In this document: positions 1-8,226 of the stretch, one piece after another
Layout of the letters: every line of letters starts with the position of its first letter
How positions within the stretch are numbered: the stretch's first letter is position 1
Source: Alphaproteobacteria bacterium casp-alpha6
GTDB lineage: Bacteria > Pseudomonadota > Alphaproteobacteria > Rhodobacterales > Rhodobacteraceae
DNA length: 64,000 nucleotides
Assembly: GCA_001510135.1 (NCBI GenBank)
Contig: LFER01000015.1
Coordinates: forward strand, 1-64,000
Reading direction: 5' to 3'
Notes under the pieces: generated by a model
Seen by the model: only the letters and a program-made list of their open reading frames with translations
The model's database searches: none
Told to the model about the DNA's origin: nothing
Made by a program: the position numbers and the translations under genes

Positions 1-816
1 ATATCTTGGCCCGATACCTTCGATATGCCCACCATACATTGCTGACCGACTGAGATTTTTTTGGATAATCTCGTGCGTGGCTTCGTTTGTATGAGTGATC
101 CCGCAAGAGATTTGCCGCGCTGTTGGCCTGTCCGACATAAACGAAAACAAAACAGGGTCCTGATCGCCCGCCTGAACATCCAGTTTATCCCATTTTATGG
201 TTCTACCATCTAAGCGCGGCGGCGTACCTGTTTTCAATCGCCCAAAATCTAGACCAAACTCATCCATCTTTTTGGCAAGCTTGACAGAAGGATCGTCTCC
301 CATCCGTCCGCCTGAAAACTGTTTTTCGCCAATGTGGATAACACCGCGCAAGAATGTACCAGTCGTAAGAACAGTGTTTTTGGATAGGATTTCTGATCCA
401 TCGCCCAGAACCACGCCAGAAACAGATCGACCTGATCCCAAAAAATCAACTACTTCACCGATAATGATCTCTAGATTATCCTGCGCTTTAATTAACGAAG
501 AAATCGCTTTTTTATATAGCGCTCTATCGGCCTGTGCGCGCGGCCCCTGAACCGCCGGCCCCTTTTTCCTGTTCAAAAGCCTAAATTGAATTCCAGCCTT
601 GTCTGCGGCTTTTCCCATAATTCCATCTAGGGCGTCAATCTCTCTTACCAAATGCCCCTTACCAAGACCACCAATTGCCGGATTGCACGACATTGTCCCA
701 AGATCACGTTCACGAAGAGTGACAAGCGCTGTCTTTGCTCCCATCCGAGCGGACGCTGCTGCTGCTTCGCATCCAGCATGACCTCCACCTATAACCACAA
801 CGTCAAAATGTTTCAC
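1..816 (-). CDS. mnmG: tRNA uridine-5-carboxymethylaminomethyl modification enzyme MnmG, C-terminus cut off by the window edge
   Basis: MnmG works with MnmE to install the cmnm5 group on wobble uridine 34 of certain tRNAs, using FAD, NADH and methylene-tetrahydrofolate. This reading frame is absent from the ORF track because it is open at base 1; I translated it by hand. The first residues read (V)[18 protein letters not shown], a Rossmann FAD-binding motif, followed by the family motif [20 protein letters not shown]. 272 of the roughly 620 usual residues are present. I chose the GTG at 816 because GAGGAG lies 8 nt upstream and the protein then begins just before the FAD motif; an in-frame GTG sits three codons earlier. 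The gene lies 12 bp after mnmE, as an mnmEG operon. The start region is also a perfect parS palindrome. Confidence 0.95.
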
Positions 817-824
817 GTGAAACA
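809..824. promoter_or_regulatory. parS: parS centromere site (ParB-binding palindrome)
   Basis: The 16-bp sequence TGTTTCACGTGAAACA is a perfect palindrome and identical to the classic parS consensus bound by chromosomal ParB in many bacteria. It covers the mnmG start codon (the GTG is inside the palindrome) and lies about 3.2 kb from the proposed oriC. ParB loads on parS and, with ParA, drives origin segregation and SMC loading. Identity to the consensus is seen directly; ParB binding here is inferred. parAB commonly lies near mnmG/rsmG in alphaproteobacteria but is not inside the window. Confidence 0.88.
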
Positions 825-3519: not shown

Positions 3520-3969
3520 CTAAAACTTTATGATCACAGAAAGGACGATTACGATCATCAAAATAGTCGGAACTTCGTTCATCAAACGATACTGACGACC
3601 TGTTAGGGAATTTTGGCCCATTTCGAAATCTTTACGACGAAGAGACAACCAATGGTGAAACCACGTCATGATCAGGACAGAACCACCCTTTAGCCAAGGC
3701 CAAACCATGGCCCAATCAACAATTCCAGGCGTCACAACAAGCAGACCGCCAAAAAACCACGTCGCAATCATTGCTGGATTCATAATCACCCGTAACAGCT
3801 TACTTTCCATAACTTGAAAAGTAACATCGAGAACATCGCCCGTAACTGCACGTTCAACGTGATACACCATCACTCTGGGAAGATAAAATAATCCCGCCAT
3901 CCATGATATGACCGCCATTATATGCAAAGCCTTTATCCAAGGATAGGCTATAAAGAGAAAATCGGTCAT
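3520..3969 (-). CDS. hemJ: Protoporphyrinogen oxidase HemJ
   Basis: HemJ converts protoporphyrinogen IX to protoporphyrin IX in heme synthesis in bacteria without HemG or HemY. It is an integral membrane, heme-binding protein of about 145 residues; this one has 149. The start MTDFLFIAYPWIKALHIMAV carries the conserved first-helix histidine, followed by SWMAGLFYLPRVMVYH; four hydrophobic segments are visible. It is the first gene left of the proposed origin, reading away from it. In many alphaproteobacteria hemE and hemC sit next to this gene; they are not seen here. Confidence 0.93.
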   Translation of the reverse strand: MTDFLFIAYPWIKALHIMAVISWMAGLFYLPRVMVYHVERAVTGDVLDVTFQVMESKLLRVIMNPAMIATWFFGGLLVVTPGIVDWAMVWPWLKGGSVLIMTWFHHWLSLRRKDFEMGQNSLTGRQYRLMNEVPTILMIVIVLSVIIKF

Positions 3970-4079
3970 CTAGATTACCACAGTTCAGCACATTCATTCA
4001 TAATATAATAATATATATAGAAAAAGATGATTATGAAGTAGGCTGATCGAAAGCTGTGGATTATTATTTATCCCATTTT

Positions 4080-4088
4080 TTATACACA
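4080..4088 (+). promoter_or_regulatory. DnaA box TTATACACA
   Basis: Exact match to the TTATNCACA consensus, inside the hemJ-maf gap. It probably binds the initiator DnaA with high affinity. Confidence 0.8.
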
Positions 4089-4181
4089 GCCTACCATTTT
4101 TACAAAATAGAAAATTAAAAATTTCCTCCACACTATCAATAACCTACGGCAAAAAAAATCAAATTATAAAAGGATAAAATC

Positions 4182-4199
4182 TTATCCACCTTATCCACA
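4182..4199 (+). promoter_or_regulatory. Tandem DnaA boxes TTATCCACC-TTATCCACA
   Basis: Two directly abutting 9-mers in the same orientation. The second is the perfect high-affinity box TTATCCACA and the first differs at the last base. Such close spacing suits cooperative DnaA loading next to the AT-rich part of the origin. Confidence 0.82.
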
Positions 4200-4343
4200 C
4201 GAAAAAGGTAATCCTTATGAACAGTGGAAAAATCTGTCGGAATTTGCCAATCATTTAGGTCGTTTTACAATCGGTAAATTTGCTAGTGAATAAATTAAAC
4301 CGTACTCTTAACATATCAGTATCTTATCCTCGGAGTTATCAAC

Positions 4344-4943
4344 ATGGCAGCGCAGGTAATTTTGGCTTCGGCGTCATCTATTCGGTCGCAAATGCTAAAC
4401 AATGTTGGTATCAATCACGAAATTTTTCCGGCAAGGATTGATGAAGAAGCCATAAAAGCATCACTTATTTCAGAGTTAACTGAAATCAGAGATATGGCAG
4501 ATATTCTAGCAGATTTGAAGGCAAAGAAAGTGTCTGCTCAACAACCTGACGCCTTTGTCATAGGTGCAGATCAAGTGCTGGAATTTGGAGATCAGGTTTA
4601 TTCAAAACCCAAGACACAGGATGATCTCAAAGGTCTTTTGCTAAAGCTAAATGGGCACGATCATATACTTTACTCCGCTGCTGTTATTTACAAGGAAGCA
4701 CGCCCGGTATGGCGACATGTGGGTAAAGTGACCTTGACAATGCGGGATCTTTCATCTGCCTATATCCATGATTATGTCGCTAAAGAATGGGATAACGTGA
4801 GGTTTTGCGTGGGGGGATATAAAATAGAAGAAAAAGGTCTGCGTCTTTTTGACAAAATTGACGGTGATTATTTTTCAATACTAGGATTACCTTTATTGGA
4901 TATCGTAAGATTCTTTGACGCAAATGGAGTATTAGAAAATTGA
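4344..4943 (+). CDS. maf: Maf family nucleotide pyrophosphatase
   Basis: Maf proteins hydrolyse non-canonical or modified nucleoside triphosphates to monophosphates (house-cleaning pyrophosphatases) and are linked to septum control. The 199-residue protein opens ILASASSIRSQML, matching the family motif LAS.S.RR..LL with Ser in place of one Arg. It then has a FPARIDEEAI segment, and FVIGADQVLEFGDQVYSKPK corresponds to the conserved GADQ catalytic region with its Asp. The ATG at 4344 overlaps a DnaA-box-like 9-mer. It is the first gene right of oriC and overlaps aroE, so maf-aroE-coaE-dnaQ look co-transcribed. Confidence 0.93.
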   Translation: MAAQVILASASSIRSQMLNNVGINHEIFPARIDEEAIKASLISELTEIRDMADILADLKAKKVSAQQPDAFVIGADQVLEFGDQVYSKPKTQDDLKGLLLKLNGHDHILYSAAVIYKEARPVWRHVGKVTLTMRDLSSAYIHDYVAKEWDNVRFCVGGYKIEEKGLRLFDKIDGDYFSILGLPLLDIVRFFDANGVLEN

Positions 4944-8115: not shown

Positions 8116-8226
8116 AAGAGTGTCTCCCTAAGTACCGCAGAATGTGGACTTGTTGTTCTTACTCACCTACATAGTAGAACTAGGCAGAACATTCTATAGG
8201 CCATAGGAAAGGGTCGAAGAAAACCT

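Follow-up and report, generated by a model that had tools for sequence, protein, structure and literature searches.

The intergenic region between hemJ and maf is, with a probability of about 95%, the chromosomal replication origin (oriC) of casp-alpha6, and an origin of the ordinary kind. This sequence-based assignment, already proposed in the initial annotation, was strengthened by the agreement of DnaA-box density, AT content, outward-reading flanking genes, nearby parS and parAB, synteny, conservation in about 50 relatives, and turns of the GC skew. Such an origin is expected at hemJ-maf, and its only unusual detail is a DnaA box placed on the maf start codon. The origin of the casp-alpha6 draft genome would thereby be placed. 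The analysis also offers a candidate recipe for oriC in Rhodobacteraceae: the hemJ-maf gap, with TAG-13-GTGGATTA at its left end and a double DnaA box on the maf start at its right end.

The analysed window (64,000 nucleotides) is the start of contig C15 in a draft assembly of 2.98 Mb. Its Rho protein shows up to 91% identity to Rhodobacteraceae Rho, and the hemJ-maf locus is common to the Rhodobacteraceae genomes compared. The features considered below are the following (window coordinates).

809–824, plus strand: parS, exact match to TGTTTCACGTGAAACA, 3.1 kb from the gap
3520–3969, minus strand: hemJ (UPF0093), left flank, named by protein family
3970–4343, no strand: hemJ-maf intergenic region, probable oriC, 374 bp, 30.2% GC
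3990–4026, no strand: AT-rich tract, probable DNA unwinding element, as judged from sequence and from the family consensus, which is A/G-rich in this stretch
4026–4041, plus strand: conserved GATGATG..GTAG element, GATGATTATGAAGTAG, DnaA-trio-like, its final TAG separated from the left box by 13 nt
4055–4063, minus strand: left DnaA box TAATCCACA (R1-like), at most one mismatch to TTATCCACA
4080–4088, plus strand: DnaA box TTATACACA, at most one mismatch to TTATCCACA
4182–4190 and 4191–4199, plus strand: abutting tandem DnaA boxes TTATCCACC and TTATCCACA, zero spacer
4324–4344, plus strand: right double DnaA box TTATCCTCG-GAG-TTATCAACA, with TTATCAACA at 4336–4344
4344–4943, plus strand: maf, right flank, first gene of maf-aroE-coaE-dnaQ, with overlapping reading frames

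Genomic setting, GC skew and DnaA-box content of the gap

The arrangement described in the initial annotation, with hemJ and maf reading outward from an AT-rich gap and a parS site in the vicinity, was confirmed. Most 1-kb stretches of the window have a GC content of 0.43 to 0.58, as compared with 30.2% in the gap. Assignment of protein families to the flanking genes yielded the order mnmE-rho-hemJ, gap, maf-aroE-coaE-dnaQ-secB-fxsA. The wider neighbourhood, with parAB, mnmG, mnmE, rho, and hemJ on one side and maf, aroE, coaE, dnaQ, and secB on the other, is of the classical alphaproteobacterial origin type, and the gap occupies the hemE slot between the rho-hem cluster and (ppsR-)maf-aroE-coaE-dnaQ-secB, near parAB. 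The mnmG gene is split across contigs (1–804 of the window and C7:1–465), the ends of which share an exact 99-bp overlap. Contig C7, once reversed, therefore connects with the beginning of C15, which brings parB (C7:2695) and a second exact parS (C7:1175) near the origin. A hemJ-maf gap of ∼400 bp is kept in about 50 Rhodobacteraceae. An Rfam search of the window returned zero matches, and a promoter scan of the gap detected no more promoters than in shuffled sequences.

Because the genome is a draft (86% complete, 68 contigs), skew analysis of casp-alpha6 was limited to the joined contigs C7 and C15, and 20-kb samples were taken from the complete relatives G003, G055, and G094. Cumulative G−C along the joined contigs is −517 at position 4340 and −522 at 8170, and climbs up to 904 at 87000; the minimum is a plateau across 4 to 8 kb. 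In G003, samples between 1.7 and 3.47 Mb have negative skew, and those from 3.49 Mb, across the record start and on to 1.3 Mb, have positive skew, with the exception of one near-zero sample at the record start itself; the sign switches around the 20-kb stretch containing hemJ-maf. G055 also exhibits a skew turn at this locus, less sharp than that of G003, and the G094 samples are too noisy to place a turn. Within the scope of the joined contigs and the sampled relative G003, the skew minimum anticipated at the gap was thus observed, in casp-alpha6 as a flat one.

DnaA boxes were defined as 9-mers with at most one mismatch to TTATCCACA, and 2,000 dinucleotide shuffles served as the null. The gap harbors 5 such boxes versus 0.17 in shuffles, and none of the 2,000 shuffles reached 5. 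Allowing up to two mismatches, the figures become 10 and 1.9. This density (5 boxes per 377 bp) is unmatched by other stretches of the window, C7, or C15, and 44 family gaps contain on average 2.75 boxes versus 0.12 in shuffles. The initial annotation had listed several DnaA-box-like 9-mers including a tandem pair, which is what we found, and had counted two of them as exact. On this last point only 4191–4199 is an exact TTATCCACA; two boxes (4080 and 4191) qualify under the looser TTWTNCACA pattern. The tandem pair at 4182–4199 is the sole TTATCCAC-N0-20-TTATCCACA arrangement in the 2.98-Mb assembly and aligns with no conserved block of the relatives. A gap with 70% AT might be expected to accumulate AT-rich 9-mers resembling DnaA boxes by chance. 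This explanation is extremely improbable, given that shuffles preserving the dinucleotides never reach the observed count and that boxes are kept in relatives whose gaps have 50% GC; a chance cluster was ruled out by these shuffles together with the start-codon box controls described below.

Conserved ends of the gap and comparison with known origins

Alignment of the hemJ-maf gaps of 43 family members revealed two conserved ends and little conservation in the middle, where mean pairwise identity is 0.35, as compared with 0.66 in the left element, 0.63 in the left box, and 0.69 in the maf box. The family left end consists of an AT/purine tract, GATGATG..GTAG, and an opposite-strand box GTGGATTA. 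In casp-alpha6, the AT tract at 3990–4026 lies beside the outer DnaA box at 4055, a layout that argues for an unwinding element. In 16 of 45 family members, among them casp-alpha6 (TAG-13-TGTGGATTA), TAG and the box are separated by precisely 13 nt. The published unwinding arrangement known as BUS comprises a DnaA box, a spacer (most commonly of 13), and DnaA-trios (PMC8287927). The casp-alpha6 origin has the box and the 13-nt spacer, as in BUS; with strict DnaA-trios taken as at least three triplets with a middle A, in one register and adjoining the spacer, it differs in having only two in-register triplets (TAG and AAG), followed by GAT-GAT-TAT shifted by one base.

Several traits are shared with E. 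coli oriC: TAG-13-TGTGGATWA at the left (DUE-R1), a TTATACACA box inside, a right-end box-GAG-box of the C1-R4 type (TTCCTGACA-GAG-TTATCCACA in E. coli), and end boxes in opposite orientations. Unlike in E. coli, the outer edges of the end boxes are 290 bp apart rather than 189, the right box overlaps a start codon, and the flanking genes are different.

Among alphaproteobacteria, the Caulobacter Cori and the Rickettsia origin occupy the known place hemE-oriC-ppsR, experimentally known in Caulobacter (PMC1914354), and the Hyphomonas origin was located near hemE by marker frequency, with parAB about 7 kb off (PMC6650430). In other alphaproteobacteria, hemE and ppsR (COG1806), here recognized from their translations alone, sit in the same slot with a box-rich cluster between them. 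The casp-alpha6 locus resembles Cori and other alphaproteobacterial origins in its gene order, rho-hemJ-[hemH]-[hemE], oriC, [ppsR]-maf-aroE-coaE-dnaQ-secB, and in combining a DnaA-box cluster with an AT-rich stretch, but it is directly flanked by hemJ and maf instead of hemE and ppsR. In casp-alpha6, hemE maps to C42:136691, about 5 kb from uvrC, and a search of the assembly (86% complete) did not detect ppsR (PF03618, COG1806), so that hemJ and maf are the immediate neighbours of oriC; as the hemJ-maf gap is also short in the relatives, this change of flanks is general in the family. A further difference from Cori is that CtrA sites (TTAA-N7-TTAA, at most one mismatch) were not found in the casp-alpha6 gap. 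Across the family gaps such sites are mildly enriched (6 exact versus 0.8 in shuffles). In seven relatives (L035, L036, L039, L043, L044, L108, and L025), a CtrA-like TTAA-N7-TTAA with 0 or 1 mismatch occurs 36 to 37 nt before maf, just before the right double box.

A survey of the same family combined skew minima, DnaA boxes, minima of local GC content, and parAB to predict oriC in 101 Rhodobacteraceae; eight strains of that survey were left without an assigned origin (PMC6699656). Its main text names neither hemE nor maf; we infer that the oriC regions it reports correspond to the hemJ-maf gap.

These features suggest how the origin may work. ATP-DnaA would bind the left box at 4055–4063 and oligomerize leftward, across GTAG/GATGATTATG and along a single strand of the hemJ-side AT tract; this tract would then melt. 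A second DnaA array of opposite direction, as in E. coli, could assemble on the inner boxes together with the right double box at 4324–4344. Helicase loading would be followed by the departure of two forks, one via rho-mnmE-parAB and the other via maf-dnaQ, and segregation would begin with the origin, through ParB bound to the nearby parS sites. Because the origin directly abuts maf, its right box probably comes to lie between the ribosome-binding site and the ATG of this gene; DnaA at this box may in addition impede expression of maf, an effect that would be dispensable for origin function.

The double DnaA box at the maf start codon

The initial annotation had pointed to a box-like site overlapping the maf start codon. 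This site is TTATCAACA at 4336–4344, the last A of which is the first base of the maf ATG, and the overlap extends to most relatives: in 30 of 51 genomes, the nine bases up to and including the A of the maf ATG form a DnaA box with no more than one mismatch. When start codons were scored with identical search tolerance, a box was found at 29 of 49 maf genes and at none of 225 starts of seven neighbouring genes, controls that ruled out a chance origin of the maf box. A weaker partner box is retained 12 nt upstream, exclusively at a spacing of 3 nt; these three bases are often GGG or GAG and may also serve as the ribosome-binding site. A preference of DnaA for box pairs 2 to 3 bp apart has been reported (PMC11317965).

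Conservation of the start-codon box is the evidence for DnaA control of maf-aroE-coaE-dnaQ, which it renders plausible, and the box is equally well explained as the right end of oriC. Both roles may coexist, with the gap acting as oriC and DnaA on the double box repressing the operon, so that its expression would be tied to origin occupancy. We regard this dual role as a tentative proposal. The incidence of the box at maf compared with the control starts, the retention of its upstream partner, and the fact that the two boxes fill the stretch from the ribosome-binding site to the maf ATG are all in its favor, but about 40% of the relatives carry no good start-codon box at maf. Moreover, in several Rhizobiales the right-end box is located about 20 to 60 nt upstream of ppsR and does not touch the ppsR start, which suggests that the maf box belongs to the origin first, as its boundary. 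The stronger formulation, in which the right boundary of oriC and the maf translation start are fused into one element in Rhodobacteraceae and DnaA occupancy directly gates maf-aroE-coaE-dnaQ, is likewise possible but doubtful. If true, the gated operon would include dnaQ, the gene of the replicase proofreading subunit. The conserved start-codon box makes this coupling between origin occupancy and operon directly testable.

It might also be argued that the boxes represent a DnaA-regulated promoter or a titration site for the maf operon, with the origin lying elsewhere, e.g., at dnaA. The strong conservation of the start-codon box would fit such a function, as would the requirement that transcription of maf-aroE-coaE-dnaQ start in or cross the gap. 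Nonetheless, this is very unlikely: the GC-skew turns, parS/parAB, and the origin synteny all coincide at the gap, the AT tract and the left element are on the hemJ side, far from maf, and the 20 kb around dnaA (on C42) contain at most 1 box per 377 bp. The lack of a box cluster in that region excluded an origin at dnaA.

A DARS1-like element upstream of uvrC

Inspection of the remaining exact DnaA boxes in the genome revealed a three-box element, TTATCCTCA-AAG-TTATCCACA-GGAAC-GGTGGAAAG, at C42:141611–141646, about 110 nt upstream of uvrC, a gene named here from its sequence alone, with no family search. Its layout (box-3-box-5-inverted box) is like that of E. coli DARS1, which lies upstream of uvrB and reads from the other strand as TAATACACA-TGG-TTATCCACA-GGAAT-AGTGGATAA; the role of DARS1 has been described previously (PMC6015884 and PMC10380432). 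This resemblance suggests an alphaproteobacterial DARS-like element, and we consider it a candidate for either an alphaproteobacterial DARS or a DnaA-controlled uvrC promoter. A review reports DARS-like sequences in many proteobacteria, which makes the novelty of the element uncertain; it may nevertheless be more novel than oriC itself. All 30 Rhodobacteraceae inspected have a DnaA box at this place within a conserved neighbourhood, and 24 of 29 genomes sampled across Alphaproteobacteria have one within 600 nt upstream of uvrC. Of 142 alphaproteobacterial genomes, 43 contain the motif TTATCCACA-N6-GTGGA and none its reversed control, and 22 of the 30 copies fetched are located upstream of uvrC on the same strand.
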